DNA of 64,000 nt from Clostridiales bacterium (GTDB lineage Bacteria > Bacillota > Desulfotomaculia > Desulfotomaculales > VENG01). Under the pieces are notes generated by a model that had not been told where the DNA came from, made no database searches, and saw only the letters and a program-made list of their open reading frames with translations. The position numbers and the translations under genes are program-made. Of the stretch, positions 7,751 through 16,449 are shown in pieces; within the stretch, counting starts at the first letter, position 1; each line of letters begins with the position of its first letter. The DNA lies in contig JADQBQ010000021.1 of the NCBI GenBank assembly GCA_016278505.1, positions 1-64,000 of the forward strand. Direction: 5' to 3'.

Positions 7751-8191
7751 ATGGAAAGGGACCCGAAGATTGTAGCGTTCCTATGCAACTGGTGTAGTTA
7801 TGCCGGCGCTGACCTGGCGGGTGTGGGAAGGATGCAATATCCCACTAACGTAAGGGTTGTCCGTGTACCGTGCTCCGGCAGAATTAACCCTTTATTTATA
7901 ATTAATGCTTTACGTAACGGCGTTGATGGCATTCTTACCTCCGGGTGACACCCCGGCGACTGCCACTATGTTAGTGGCAACCTGGTAGCCCGAAGGAAAT
8001 TTGTCATGCTTAAGAGCCTCTTAGAATATATGGGGGTTGACGAAGGCCGTGTTAACTTCTCTTGGGTTTCGGCTTCTGAAGGCGGCCGTTTCGCTGAGTT
8101 GGTTGGTGAAGTAACAGAAAAAGTGAAGCAGTTGGGGCCCAATGAGGGCTTAATTGACAAGAAAGCGGGGTGTTGCGGATGTCAGGAATAG
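7751..8191 (+). CDS. mvhD: MvhD-like [2Fe-2S] electron-transfer subunit, selenoprotein (paralog 1)
   Basis: The gene reads through one in-frame TGA (7946-7948), giving 146 residues with selenocysteine at position 66. The motif is TSG-U-HPGDCHY, where MvhD/FlxD proteins normally have GCHPGDCHY. Similarity continues on both sides of the TGA ([10 protein letters not shown] before; [12 protein letters not shown] and AEGGRF-like segment after), so this is not two genes. A perfect hairpin at 7961-7979 is placed as expected for a bacterial SECIS. MvhD passes electrons to HdrA. The start ATG 7751 follows GGGAGGG, 22 nt after hdrA1. The C-terminus ends in a small Cys cluster (CCGCQE). The 3' end overlaps the next gene by 13 nt, implying coupling. 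Confidence 0.9.
7961..7979 (+). promoter_or_regulatory. Bacterial SECIS-type hairpin of mvhD1
   Basis: TGCCACTA, loop TGT, TAGTGGCA: an 8-bp perfect stem starting 12 nt after the TGA at 7946-7948. The apical loop begins 20 nt after the TGA and has G as its second base. This fits the published bSECIS description (loop 16-37 nt downstream, G in the first two loop bases). Confidence 0.8.
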
Positions 8192-11401: not shown

Positions 11402-14400
11402 ATGAGTTCTGGTAAAGTCGGGGCTGTGATGGTTGTAGGAGCGGGGATTGCCGGTATACAGGCGTCCCTGGACCTGGCCGAATCCGGCTACTACGTGTAT
11501 CTTGTGGAGCAATCACCAGCTATAGGCGGCGCTATGCCCATGCTGGACAAAACATTTCCAACCAATGATTGTTCCATGTGTATTCTATCTCCCAAACTAG
11601 TTCAATGCGGGAGACACCTGAACATTGAAACACTAACTAATTCAGTAGTGAGTGAAGTTGAAGGGGAGCCGGGAAATTTTAAAGTTAGTATTCAGCAAAA
11701 AGCCCGGTATGTTGATCCTGATAAATGTACCGGCTGTGGCTCTTGCGCCGAAGAATGTCCTGTTAAGGTAGATGATGAGTTTAACCAGGGACTGGGTAAG
11801 CGTAAGGCCATTTACAAATCTTATGCCCAAGCATATCCAAATGCCTATGCTATTGACCCAAGTAAGTGCTTAAAGATGAAGAAGGCTAAGGCATGTGGCA
11901 AATGTCTGGAAGTATGTCAGGCAGACGCCATTGATCACGAAATGCAGGATGAAACCATTGATATTGAAGTTGGTTCCGTCATTCTTTGTCCTGGCTTTGA
12001 AAAGTTCGATCCCACTGATCTGGAGTACTACGGCTATGGTAAATTCCCCAATGTTGTTACCAGCCTGGAATTCGAACGTATTCTGAGTGCATCTGGACCG
12101 TATGGGGGTCACTTGCAGCGGCCTTACGACGGTAAAGAGCCTCTTAAAGTCGCCTGGATACAGTGTGTGGGTTCCCGCAACTGCAAGATAGAAAATGGCT
12201 ACTGTTCATCTGTTTGCTGCATGTACGCCATAAAAGAGGCCGTGATTGCCAAAGAACACAGCAAAAATGACCTTGACACTTCTATTTTCTTCATGGATAT
12301 GCGTACGTATGGTAAGGACTTTGAAAAGTATTATGACCGGGCTCGTGAGGAGCAGGGCGTAAACTTTATACGCTCACGGATCTTTAAGATTTCTGAAGTG
12401 GATGAAGAAAGTAAAGACCTAACCATCAGGTATGCAGATGAAAAAGGCCAATTACACAATGAAGAATTTGATATGGTAGTGCTTTCCGTTGGTCTCGAGC
12501 CGGCTCCCAGTGTTATTGAGCTGGGCAAGAAGCTGGGGTTAGAGCTTAACCAGTTTGGTTTCGCTGAGACAGAGCCTATGACCGGGGTCAATAGCTCTAA
12601 GGAAGGCATATACGTTGCCGGTGCTTTCGGCGGTCCCAAGGATATTCCGGAAACAGTTTTATCAGCCAGTGCTGCGGCAGGAGCATCTGCGAGCCTCCTG
12701 GGTGATGTGCGCGGTACCATGATCAAGGAAGTAGAGTTCCCACCTGAAAAGGATGTCAGCGAAGAAGATCCACGTATCGGCGTATTTGTCTGCCATTGCG
12801 GTGTGAATATCGGAAGCACTGTGAATGTCCCCGGAGTGGTAGAAACCGCTAAAGACCTGCCTAACGTTGCGTACGCAGGCGAGTACCTTTATGTCTGCTC
12901 TCAGGATAGCCAGGCATCGATCAGAGAAGCGATAGAAGAACACAGGCTGAATCGGGTGGTTGTTGCTTCGTGCAGTCCCCGTACCCATAAACCCCTGTTC
13001 CAGGAAACCATGCGGGAGGCAGGCCTTAACCCCTACCTCTTTGAAATGGCTAATATACGTGACCAGTGTTCCTGGGTGCACATGAATGAACCGGAAAAGG
13101 CTACAGAGAAAGCTAAGGACCTAGTTAAGATGGTTGTAGCTAAAGCTGCCCTTTTAGAGCCGGTAAAACAGATGTCTGTACAGGTAACTCCCAAGGTTCT
13201 GGTAATCGGTGGCGGCGTAACCGGCATGAGCAATGCCATCAGCCTGGCAGAGCAGGGTTATAGCGTTCACATTATCGAAAAATCAGATCAGCTGGGTGGC
13301 AATGCCCTGCGCATTAAGCAAGGTTTTAAGGGTGAAGATGTGCAAGCATTTGTGGCAGACTTAATTAATAAGGTTGAGTCCAGCGACAATATAGAAGTAT
13401 CTACAGGTACCGGGGTTTCTGAAGCGTCCGGCTATGTAGGGAACTTTAAAACCACTCTGACCAACGGTGATATTGTAGAGCATGGCGTTACCGTGGTAGC
13501 CATTGGCGGTCAAGAATACAAGCCTACAGAATACCTGTATAACGAACACGACGCCGTATTCACCCAGCTGGAGCTGGAAGAAGCAATAGCTGCTAATGAC
13601 CCCAAGGTAACACAGGCGAAAAATATTGTCTTAATACAGTGTGTAGGTTCCAGAGATGCTGAGCGGCCATACTGCAGTCGTGTATGCTGCAACAAGTCTG
13701 TAAAACTGGCTCTGCACTTGAAGGAAATTAACCCGGACGTTAATGTATTTGTTCTTTACCGCGATGTCCGGACGTACGGCTTTTACGAAGAAAACTATCG
13801 CCAGGCCCGGCAAAAGGGAGTTATCTTTGTTCGTTACAATGCCGAGGATAAACCCAGAGTGGAGGCCGCCGGCAACAGCCTACAAGTGACAGTTACTGAC
13901 CATGTTCTTGGTGAGCCAATTGTTATTGAAACCGACGCCGTTGGACTGGCAGCCGCTATACTGGCACCTGAAGACAACGAACAAATGAACCGTATGTTTA
14001 AAGTCCCCCTTAACGCTGACGGCTTCTTCCTTGAAGCTCACATGAAGCTTCGTCCCGTGGATACGGCAGCAGATGGTGTGTTCATTGCCGGTCTCGCGCA
14101 TGGGCCCAAGTCCATGGAAGAGAATGTTGCCCAGGCTAAGGCTGCAGCAGGTAGGGCTCTCACCATATTAAGTAAGGATTCCTTGGAATCCTCTGGTGTG
14201 GTAGCCGTTGTTCAACCGGACAAATGTGCGGCTTGCCTGACTTGTGTGCGTCTGTGTCCCTTTAGCGCACCGCGTATTAATAACTACGCGGCCGAGATCG
14301 AAGCAGTACTCTGTCAAGGTTGCGGCAGCTGCGCAGGTGAATGTCCCAATAAAGCCATCACCTTACAAAGTTATAAAGATGTTATGCTCATGAACATGGT

Positions 14401-14428
14401 AGATTCGCTATATAAGGAGGTGCGTTAA
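11402..14428 (+). CDS. hdrA: HdrA-like flavin-based electron-bifurcation subunit, duplicated-domain form (paralog 2)
   Basis: 1008 residues, colinear with the first HdrA and clearly its paralog. It has the same GAGIAG, NDCSMCILSPKL, CTGCGSCAEECP, CGKCLEVC and duplicated QCVGSR...YCS motifs. The C-terminal ferredoxin differs (CAACLTCVRLCPF and CQGCGSCAGECP). The start ATG is 13 nt from AAAGGA and overlaps a mini-ORF, as in paralog 1. It is followed at once by mvhD2, metV and metF, so it is likely the core of a methylene-THF reductase complex like that of Moorella (MetVF-HdrABC-MvhD). HdrB and HdrC are absent here. Oxidant and reductant are inferred. Confidence 0.9.
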   Translation: MSSGKVGAVMVVGAGIAGIQASLDLAESGYYVYLVEQSPAIGGAMPMLDKTFPTNDCSMCILSPKLVQCGRHLNIETLTNSVVSEVEGEPGNFKVSIQQKARYVDPDKCTGCGSCAEECPVKVDDEFNQGLGKRKAIYKSYAQAYPNAYAIDPSKCLKMKKAKACGKCLEVCQADAIDHEMQDETIDIEVGSVILCPGFEKFDPTDLEYYGYGKFPNVVTSLEFERILSASGPYGGHLQRPYDGKEPLKVAWIQCVGSRNCKIENGYCSSVCCMYAIKEAVIAKEHSKNDLDTSIFFMDMRTYGKDFEKYYDRAREEQGVNFIRSRIFKISEVDEESKDLTIRYADEKGQLHNEEFDMVVLSVGLEPAPSVIELGKKLGLELNQFGFAETEPMTGVNSSKEGIYVAGAFGGPKDIPETVLSASAAAGASASLLGDVRGTMIKEVEFPPEKDVSEEDPRIGVFVCHCGVNIGSTVNVPGVVETAKDLPNVAYAGEYLYVCSQDSQASIREAIEEHRLNRVVVASCSPRTHKPLFQETMREAGLNPYLFEMANIRDQCSWVHMNEPEKATEKAKDLVKMVVAKAALLEPVKQMSVQVTPKVLVIGGGVTGMSNAISLAEQGYSVHIIEKSDQLGGNALRIKQGFKGEDVQAFVADLINKVESSDNIEVSTGTGVSEASGYVGNFKTTLTNGDIVEHGVTVVAIGGQEYKPTEYLYNEHDAVFTQLELEEAIAANDPKVTQAKNIVLIQCVGSRDAERPYCSRVCCNKSVKLALHLKEINPDVNVFVLYRDVRTYGFYEENYRQARQKGVIFVRYNAEDKPRVEAAGNSLQVTVTDHVLGEPIVIETDAVGLAAAILAPEDNEQMNRMFKVPLNADGFFLEAHMKLRPVDTAADGVFIAGLAHGPKSMEENVAQAKAAAGRALTILSKDSLESSGVVAVVQPDKCAACLTCVRLCPFSAPRINNYAAEIEAVLCQGCGSCAGECPNKAITLQSYKDVMLMNMVDSLYKEVR

Positions 14429-14429
14429 G

Positions 14430-14858
14430 GTGGCTGAATTTGAACCTAAAATTGTAGCATTCTGCTGTCACTACTGAGCATACTCAGCTGCGGACCTGGC
14501 AGGTTCCATGAGACTTCAGTATGCTTCAACGGTAAGAATTATCGAAATGCCATGCACTGGTACCATTGACCACCGCGTACTTCTTAAAACCTTTGAGGAT
14601 GGTGCTGACGGTGTATTTGTCGCAGGATGTATGGAAGGCGACTGCCACTTCCTTAAGGGAAATATACGCGCTAAAAAACGCGTCAATATGGTTAAAAATA
14701 TATTGGAGGAAATTGGTTTTGGTGGAGACCGCCTGGATTTCTTCAACCTTTCGGCTGCACAGGGACAGCGGTTTGCTGAAATTGTAACCGAAATGACCGA
14801 TCGCATTCGTGAACTTGGTCCCACTCCCCTGAATCAGAAAGAAGGTGACACAGCATGA
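14430..14858 (+). CDS. mvhD: MvhD-like [2Fe-2S] electron-transfer subunit, selenoprotein (paralog 2)
   Basis: Starts at GTG 14430 behind AAGGAGG, 1 nt after the hdrA2 stop, and reads through TGA (14475-14477) as selenocysteine 16 in CCHY-U-AYSAAD. The aligned residue in MvhD1 is Cys15 ([10 protein letters not shown]). The position that is Sec in MvhD1 is an ordinary Cys67 here (AGCMEGDCHF). Total length is 142 residues, standard for MvhD. Starting at the first ATG after the TGA (14508) would lose the conserved N-terminal Cys motif. A hairpin at 14492-14507 serves as SECIS candidate. The 3' end overlaps metV by 4 nt. Role: electron carrier of the HdrA2-MetVF complex (inference). Confidence 0.9.
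14492..14507 (+). promoter_or_regulatory. Bacterial SECIS-type hairpin of mvhD2
   Basis: GGACCT, loop GGC, AGGTTCC: a stem with one bulged T on the 3' side. The loop starts 20 nt after the TGA (14475-14477), the same distance as in mvhD1, and begins with G. Confidence 0.65.
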
Positions 14859-15526
14859 TAATAGCCCAACAAAAATCTATTCAGGATATTGCCTCGATGA
14901 TCGAAGACTGTAATAAAGTGTTGTTGGTGGGCTGTGCAGGATGCGTCACTGTCTGCCTTGCAGGCGGAGAGAAGGAAACAGAGGTGTTAGCTGCTTCTCT
15001 TCGCATCAAGCGGAGGTTAGAAAATAAGCCTCTGGAAACAGTTACTTTCGTAGCCACCCGCCAATGTGACCCTGAGTATATTGAAACCCTGGAAAGCTAC
15101 GTAAAAGATGTTGATGCAGTTATATCTCTAGCCTGTGGCGTAGGGGTGCAGTACGTGGCCGAGCGCTTTTCCGATAAATGGGTAGTACCGGCTCTGAATA
15201 CCAACTTTATCGGCGGCTCGCTAAACCATGGCGAGTGGGAGGAGCGGTGCGGTCTCTGCGGCGACTGTGTTTTACACCGTACAGGTGGCATATGTCCCAT
15301 TATTCGATGCTCCAAGAGTATCTTGAACGGGCCTTGCGGCGGTTCTCAGTATGGCAAGTGTGAAATCAGCAAAGATATGGACTGTGCCTGGCAACTTATC
15401 TACGACCGCATGAAAGCCCTGGGTAAGCTCGACAAATTGATGGAGTACCAGCCTCCCAAGGATTGGTCCAAATCTCGTGATGGCGGCCCACGCAGGGCTG
15501 TCAGGGAGGATGTGATGATAGATTGA
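14855..15526 (+). CDS. metV: MetV, methylene-THF reductase C-terminal-type Fe-S/zinc protein
   Basis: 223 residues of the methylene-tetrahydrofolate reductase C-terminal family (MetV). It is cysteine-rich: GCAGCVTVC near the start, then CGLCGDCVL, GICPIIRCSKS and NGPCGGSQYGKCE in the second half, which known MetV structures use for an Fe-S cluster and zinc. MetV links MetF to its electron donor. ATG overlaps mvhD2 (ATGA) and the stop overlaps metF (TTGA), so the four genes form one tightly coupled unit. Confidence 0.88.
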   Translation: MIIAQQKSIQDIASMIEDCNKVLLVGCAGCVTVCLAGGEKETEVLAASLRIKRRLENKPLETVTFVATRQCDPEYIETLESYVKDVDAVISLACGVGVQYVAERFSDKWVVPALNTNFIGGSLNHGEWEERCGLCGDCVLHRTGGICPIIRCSKSILNGPCGGSQYGKCEISKDMDCAWQLIYDRMKALGKLDKLMEYQPPKDWSKSRDGGPRRAVREDVMID

Positions 15527-16449
15527 AAACCGAGAGCAAACTCGAAAAGGTCTTAAACAGCGGTAAATTTGCTGTCACAGCGGAAATAGGGCCACCAAAA
15601 CACGCATCCGGCGACGGGATGAAGCACCATGCCGATATGCTGGTAGACTACGTTGACGCAGCAAACATTACTGACAGCCAAACTGCCATCGTGCGCATAT
15701 CCAGTATCGCCGGTGGTGTGCATATCAAGGAAAAAGGTGTAGAGCCCATCGTACAAATGACCTGTCGTGATCGCAACCGTATTGCCATGCAGGCTGATAT
15801 ACTTGGTGCTTATAGCTTGGGCATGAGAAATCTTCTCTGCCTATCGGGTGACCACCAGAAATTCGGCAACCACCCCACCAGTAAAAACGTATATGATGTG
15901 GACTCTATGCAGCTTATCCATCTGGTGCGTAGAATGCGTGATGAAAAACTATTCTTCTCAGGTGAAGAAATTAAAGAGAATGAACCACGCTTTTTTGTGG
16001 GAGCAGTAGCCAACCCATTTGCCGACCCCTTTGAATTCCGGGTAGACCGCCTGGAGAAAAAAGTGGAGGCCGGGGCTGAATTTATACAAACCCAGTGTAT
16101 CTTTGATATGGAGCGCTTTGAACGCTTCATGGAAATGGTACGCGAGCGTGGCATTGACGAGCGAGTACACATTTTAGCCGGGATAACTCCCATGAAAAGC
16201 TGGCGTGCTGCCAAATACATCGGAAACAATGTTAGTGGCATGATTGTACCTGATGCACTGGTACAGCGCCTGAAAAACGCCGAGGACCCCAAACGTGAGG
16301 GTATAGAAATGGCTATTGAGCAAATTAACTATATCAAAGAAAATGTGAAAGGCGTGCACGGCTTCCACGTTATGGCCATTGCATGGGAGGAAGTTGTACC
16401 GGAAATTGTTGAGCGGTGCGGGCTTTATCCCAGGCCGAATGTCGACTAG
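15523..16449 (+). CDS. metF: 5,10-methylenetetrahydrofolate reductase
   Basis: 308-residue FAD TIM-barrel enzyme that reduces methylene-THF to methyl-THF, the substrate of AcsE encoded upstream. It shows AEIGPPKH near the start, LCLSGDHQ and FIQTQCIFD, all MetF-type motifs. TTG 15523 overlaps the metV stop (TTGA). The association with metV, hdrA and mvhD marks it as a MetVF (type III) reductase rather than a stand-alone NAD(P)H enzyme. It can run in either direction depending on whether the organism makes or oxidises acetate. Confidence 0.92.
   Translation: MKTESKLEKVLNSGKFAVTAEIGPPKHASGDGMKHHADMLVDYVDAANITDSQTAIVRISSIAGGVHIKEKGVEPIVQMTCRDRNRIAMQADILGAYSLGMRNLLCLSGDHQKFGNHPTSKNVYDVDSMQLIHLVRRMRDEKLFFSGEEIKENEPRFFVGAVANPFADPFEFRVDRLEKKVEAGAEFIQTQCIFDMERFERFMEMVRERGIDERVHILAGITPMKSWRAAKYIGNNVSGMIVPDALVQRLKNAEDPKREGIEMAIEQINYIKENVKGVHGFHVMAIAWEEVVPEIVERCGLYPRPNVD

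Follow-up and report, generated by a model that had tools for sequence, protein, structure and literature searches.

The mvhD2 gene in the window (i.e., the whole 64,000-nucleotide stretch of DNA that was analysed) is very probably a selenocysteine-containing mvhD, in which a candidate SECIS hairpin would direct selenocysteine (Sec) to an in-frame UGA via SelB. The RNA core of this hairpin is frozen at synonymous sites in the copies of the gene that carry TGA, and was found in only one of the homologues that carry a Cys codon instead.

The mvhD2 gene and its in-frame TGA

The mvhD2 gene (positions 14430–14858, forward strand), which encodes an iron–sulfur protein of an anaerobic bacterium, starts with GTG and, when TGA is read as Sec, has an open frame of 142 residues with Sec at codon 16; its normal stop is also a TGA (14856–14858). 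The in-frame TGA lies at positions 14475–14477 on the forward strand, where the first-pass annotation had placed it, and occupies the second Cys position in a CxxC motif, which thereby becomes C-H-Y-U, a CxxU motif. The protein was conserved on both sides of this TGA, and the TGA was aligned with a Cys codon of the homologues. The second Sec site, codon 67, is TGT in mvhD2, leaving a single predicted Sec. The product matched PF02662 (FlpD) with 168.3 bits (cut-off, 22.3), which places it in the FlpD/MvhD family, and it aligned end to end with the MvhD chains of solved structures. In one of these chains, 9sfi_K, an X, which does not necessarily stand for Sec, is printed at the positions of both the mvhD2 TGA and the TGA of the paralogue mvhD1. 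With the VhuD model NF045873, MvhD2 scored 165.9 bits, below the cut-off of 215, and it was not filed as VhuD.

The gene is flanked by an HdrA-type gene on one side and by metV and metF on the other. The upstream partner, hdrA (11402–14428, forward strand), encodes an HdrA-like flavoprotein with ferredoxin domains, which scored 1003 bits against the HdrA2 model NF040770, below its cut-off of 1100. Downstream, a metV-like gene (14855–15526, forward strand) encodes a methylene-THF reductase C-terminal domain (PF12225, 129 bits), and is followed by a gene for a metF-like methylenetetrahydrofolate reductase (15523–16449, forward strand; PF02219, 153.1 bits). Acetyl-CoA synthase-type genes were observed near the start of the window. 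Inspection of the other ORFs in the window that need TGA readthrough yielded no convincing further selenoprotein, and the TGAs of these ORFs fell outside recognised domain stretches.

Conservation of the hairpin core in TGA and Cys homologues

To compare TGA-bearing copies with their Cys homologues, we used 130 mvhD2-type loci gathered both within the order to which the window belongs and in named genomes (30, plus the top 80 among 373 confirmed loci, plus 20); because only the best 80 of the 373 were kept, distant relatives were under-sampled. The removal of 21 exact duplicates left 109 distinct homologues, in which the codon at the Sec site was TGA in 29, TGC or TGT in 79, and TCT in one (L046), which was counted in neither group. 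Three of the 79 Cys rows (L106, L110, and L123) carry TGA at the second site.

The 17-nt core GCGGACCTGGCAGGTTC (14490–14506, forward strand), which consists of codons 21–25 and two bases of codon 26, was identical in all 29 distinct TGA orthologues, which stem from many genera, whereas it was present in only one of the 79 distinct Cys homologues (L156). Among 79 degenerate codons whose amino acid is conserved, five were represented by a single codon in every TGA copy, and these were the consecutive codons 21–25, i.e., the hairpin itself; in the Cys homologues, the same codons each occurred as two to six synonyms. Five codons picked at random from the 79 would be consecutive about three times per million (75 runs in 22.5 million choices), when the relatedness of the genes is ignored. 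Similarly, at least 6 contiguous bp could form at the place of the hairpin in 29 of 29 TGA copies, but in only one of 79 Cys copies and in 0.8% of 200,000 random synonymous recodings. This comparison upholds the earlier proposal that a bacterial SECIS recodes the TGA, and from these alignments the predicted reading of the mvhD2 TGA as Sec is well supported. When the search was extended to 299 genomes from the phylum, further TGA-bearing relatives were matched; one row contained two TGAs, with a match extending to query residue 143, and the second of these may be the terminal stop.

Pairing of the hairpin and alternative readings

The candidate SECIS hairpin (14492–14506, forward strand) is composed of the stem GGACCT/AGGTTC, with 6 bp including one G-U pair, and the loop GGC. 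All the letters named in the first-pass annotation are present (GGACCT at 14492–14497, GGC at 14498–14500, and AGGTTCC at 14501–14507), and the geometry was as it had described, with the hairpin beginning 14 nt and the loop 20 nt past the TGA, and G as the first base of the loop. The conserved pairing is CGGACCU/AGGUUCG, with no bulge and one G-U pair. The unbulged pairs were kept in 29 of 29 TGA orthologues, and a seventh pair (14491–14507) forms in 25 of the 29, but is mismatched in the window, which is among the minority with C instead of G at 14507 and therefore has a stem of 6 bp instead of 7. With RNAfold, the 16-nt hairpin had a predicted minimum free energy of −5.3 kcal/mol, a 40-nt stretch reached −10.0, and 56 nt counted from the TGA reached −17.3; the z-scores of the folds against shuffled sequences were only −0.2 to −1.6. 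The core is invariant among the TGA orthologues, and thus offers no covariation as evidence for pairing.

It is improbable that SelB or the ribosome instead needs a longer stem that starts at the UGA (approximately 14476–14489 with 14511–14526). The window does fold in this way at −17.3 kcal/mol, and some of the outer pairs (e.g., A14482–T14520 and G14478–C14524) were found in 29 of 29 TGA orthologues. However, most of the pairs that were kept involve codon positions that the protein sequence dictates, whereas five outer pairs form in just 12, 13, 15, 16, and 9 of the 29, and a conserved outer stem was rejected on these counts.

The E. coli fdhF element has a bulged base, and the first-pass annotation had seen an analogue of it in a single bulged T of the mvhD2 hairpin. 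This register is compatible with the bases of the window itself, but a hairpin that works with such a bulge is very unlikely: RNAfold paired GGACCU with AGGUUC bulge-free, via the G-U pair, and the outer G14492–C14507 pair that the bulge requires is possible in only three of the 29 TGA orthologues, whereas the unbulged register gains its seventh pair in 25.

The equal spacing in the two paralogues had also been thought hard to explain by chance, and this argument did not hold. A loose SECIS-like hairpin followed 281 of the 1903 TGA triplets in the window, compared with 231–288 in 10 Markov windows, and the strict form (a 3-nt G-loop at exactly +20 and at least 6 bp) occurred twice in the window and zero to three times in the Markov windows. 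Because a hairpin at such spacing is common by chance, the spacing proves little; the hairpin in isolation does not exceed the chance level, and it is the conservation across species that does. Although the commonness of such hairpins and the presence of a 116-aa ORF from ATG 14508 could be taken to mean that translation simply stops at the TGA, or that this codon reflects a sequencing error or a pseudogene, with a functional protein that begins at this ATG and lacks the N-terminal CxxC, we give this explanation next to no credence, since the same TGA and the same downstream core recur in 29 distinct orthologues of many genera and the conserved protein extends upstream in frame into the CxxC, with Cys there in 79 homologues. 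A chance hairpin beside a real stop was likewise rejected by the comparison of TGA and Cys homologues and the conservation of the core.

Phylogenetic distribution of the predicted Sec codon and exceptional copies

On a phylogenetic tree of the 109 proteins, constructed with the Sec site masked, the TGA label needed six changes, suggesting that Sec and Cys were exchanged several times. Among well-supported (starred) branches, there were four independent pairs, in which the core and TGA occurred together in 3.8 on average and never in the opposite sense; with a median p of 0.125, four pairs were too few for significance.

The one Cys copy in which the 17-nt core is complete, L156 from genome G023 (codon TGC), was placed in a Cys clade inside the TGA-rich part of the tree, and a TGA copy (L033) lies approximately 7 kb away from it. 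Its core is probably what was left of the signal when Cys took the place of Sec. The nearest relative of the window's gene, in genome G112 (L046:1501–1914), has Ser at the site (FCCHYSAYS) and one codon deleted in the hairpin region, although this genome has SelB. The residue is therefore not indispensable everywhere, and the Ser would fit awkwardly with an essential cluster ligand.

Other unusual copies were observed. In L106, L110, and L123, which come from distant phyla, TGA occupies the second site and not the first, and a hairpin-like stretch containing CCTGG follows each. On a contig labelled Proteobacteria (L102), TGA was found together with the identical 17-nt core, in a gene whose protein is only approximately 65% identical, which may reflect transfer or mis-binning.

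Selenocysteine machinery

The genome encodes tRNA-Sec with anticodon TCA (UCA in the RNA; 67.4 bits, cut-off 47), SelB (381.6 bits) with an adjoining SelA (612.2 bits), and two SelDs (L128 and L129, on contigs C13 and C47), so that tRNA-Sec, SelA, SelB, and SelD are all present in the same genome. Each selD has one in-frame TGA, and in the hairpins that follow these, as counted by eye, the loop (TGA in one, GGC in the other) begins 17 nt past the in-frame TGA; 20 nt is therefore no fixed rule. SelB was matched in all 25 TGA-bearing relatives tested (24 above the cut-off and one fragmentary), and also in each of the 19 relatives tested that lack TGA at the mvhD2 site, so that its presence is a prerequisite but does not separate the two groups. 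A genome-wide reassignment of TGA was rejected: mvhD2 itself terminates at TGA, and of the three best matches to the tRNA-Sec model, only one, namely the tRNA-Sec, has a TCA anticodon according to ARAGORN.

The mvhD1 paralogue

In the paralogue mvhD1 (7751–8191, forward strand), the predicted Sec is residue 66, within GUHPGDCHY. The fold is shared with MvhD2 but the Cys site is another one, as the in-frame TGA (7946–7948, forward strand) aligns with Cys67 of MvhD2. When folded, the putative SECIS of mvhD1 (7961–7979, forward strand) was TGCCACTA-TGT-TAGTGGCA, with 8 bp and the loop TGT at 7969–7971. Twenty mvhD1 relatives were drawn from rows of the 30-locus set, mostly because TGA was visible in them, and the presence of TGA in 19 of these 20 is accordingly not a frequency. 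The codons GAC, CAC, TAT, AGT, and GGC of the mvhD1 element were identical in 19 of 19 TGA copies. Two further MvhD genes of the same genome (L173 and L174) also had TGA at the mvhD1 site, with the loop TGG, and none of the 150 loci examined had TGA at both Sec sites.

The first-pass annotation had stressed that the two paralogues of the window have equal spacing. This was true of the start of the loop, which lies 20 nt past the TGA in both, but the first G of the loop is the 22nd base in mvhD1 and the 21st in mvhD2, and the two TGAs are at different Cys codons of the fold. Because of these different positions, the shared spacing does not go back to a single ancestral element; the two predicted elements would thus resemble each other in working distance and not by descent. 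We consider it possible, although doubtful, that bacterial paralogues in one neighbourhood use the MvhD Sec sites singly (codon 16 in mvhD2, and codon 66, GUxPGDC, in mvhD1), each with its own SECIS and with repeated Sec/Cys swaps. If so, Sec at either site would tune the same iron–sulfur cluster for different HdrA partners. Such a split between neighbouring bacterial paralogues was not met in the portions of the literature that were consulted here.

Proposed recoding and its implications

We propose that, when the ribosome reaches the UGA at 14475–14477, SelB with Sec-tRNA(UCA) would bind the hairpin GGACCU-GGC-AGGUUC just 3′ of it and deliver Sec instead of termination. Translation would then continue to the second UGA (14856–14858), which no conserved core follows and which would end the protein. 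The MvhD2 product would carry Sec in place of the second Cys of the N-terminal CxxC, where it may ligate the cluster. Its most likely electron acceptor would be the product of the upstream hdrA gene, with which it would form a complex that includes the methylene-THF reductase MetV/MetF.

The predicted recoding corrects the annotation, in which the mvhD2 product would otherwise be cut at codon 15 or begun at ATG 14508. The 29 Sec and 79 Cys homologues also constitute a clean comparative test case for a SECIS, in which the RNA signal comes and goes with the codon, whereas general knowledge of Sec is unchanged by mvhD2.

Comparison with known systems

In the part of the bSECIS description in PMC13188914 that we used, the model has a loop of 3–9 nt, an upper stem of 4–16 bp, G in one of the first two loop positions, and 16–37 nt between the UGA and the loop. 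The mvhD2 element is alike in these respects, with a 3-nt loop (GGC) that begins with G, 6 contiguous bp, and 20 nt, and its UGGCA fits the pattern N1-G-[G|U]-N-N2. The model also sets an energy limit of −7.5 kcal/mol, and the text used does not specify the stretch to be folded; the upper stem alone, at −5.3, does not reach this limit, whereas the longer stretches of 40 and 56 nt, at −10.0 and −17.3, lie below it. The GGC loop is the same as that of selD L129 in the same genome (as judged by eye) and differs from the UGU and UGG found in mvhD1-like genes.

The HdrABC-MvhD-MetVF cluster of Moorella thermoacetica (PMC5736913, in the portion consulted) resembles the window in that hdrA, mvhD, metV, and metF are clustered. 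In contrast to mvhD2, the Sec position is encoded as Cys in the Moorella homologues that we found (L063, L065, L070, L075, and L099). In the sulfate reducer Desulfobacterium autotrophicum, four Sec-containing MvhDs are described in the relevant portion of PMC2702500, with mvhD genes located beside hdrA/hdrL.

MvhD/VhuD (PF02662, motif CxxU) is included among the verified selenoproteins in PMC13188914, where the representative contains two Sec. The same text attributes multiple Sec to some archaeal MvhD/VhuD members, and two Sec are therefore a variable and not a required feature. MvhD2 shares the Pfam family and the CxxU motif with this Sec-MvhD, but has one predicted Sec where the representative has two, its second site being Cys. 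As the family is delimited in these sections of PMC13188914 (PF02662, CxxU), the mvhD2 Sec gene and its candidate SECIS are a further instance of the published Sec-MvhD family.
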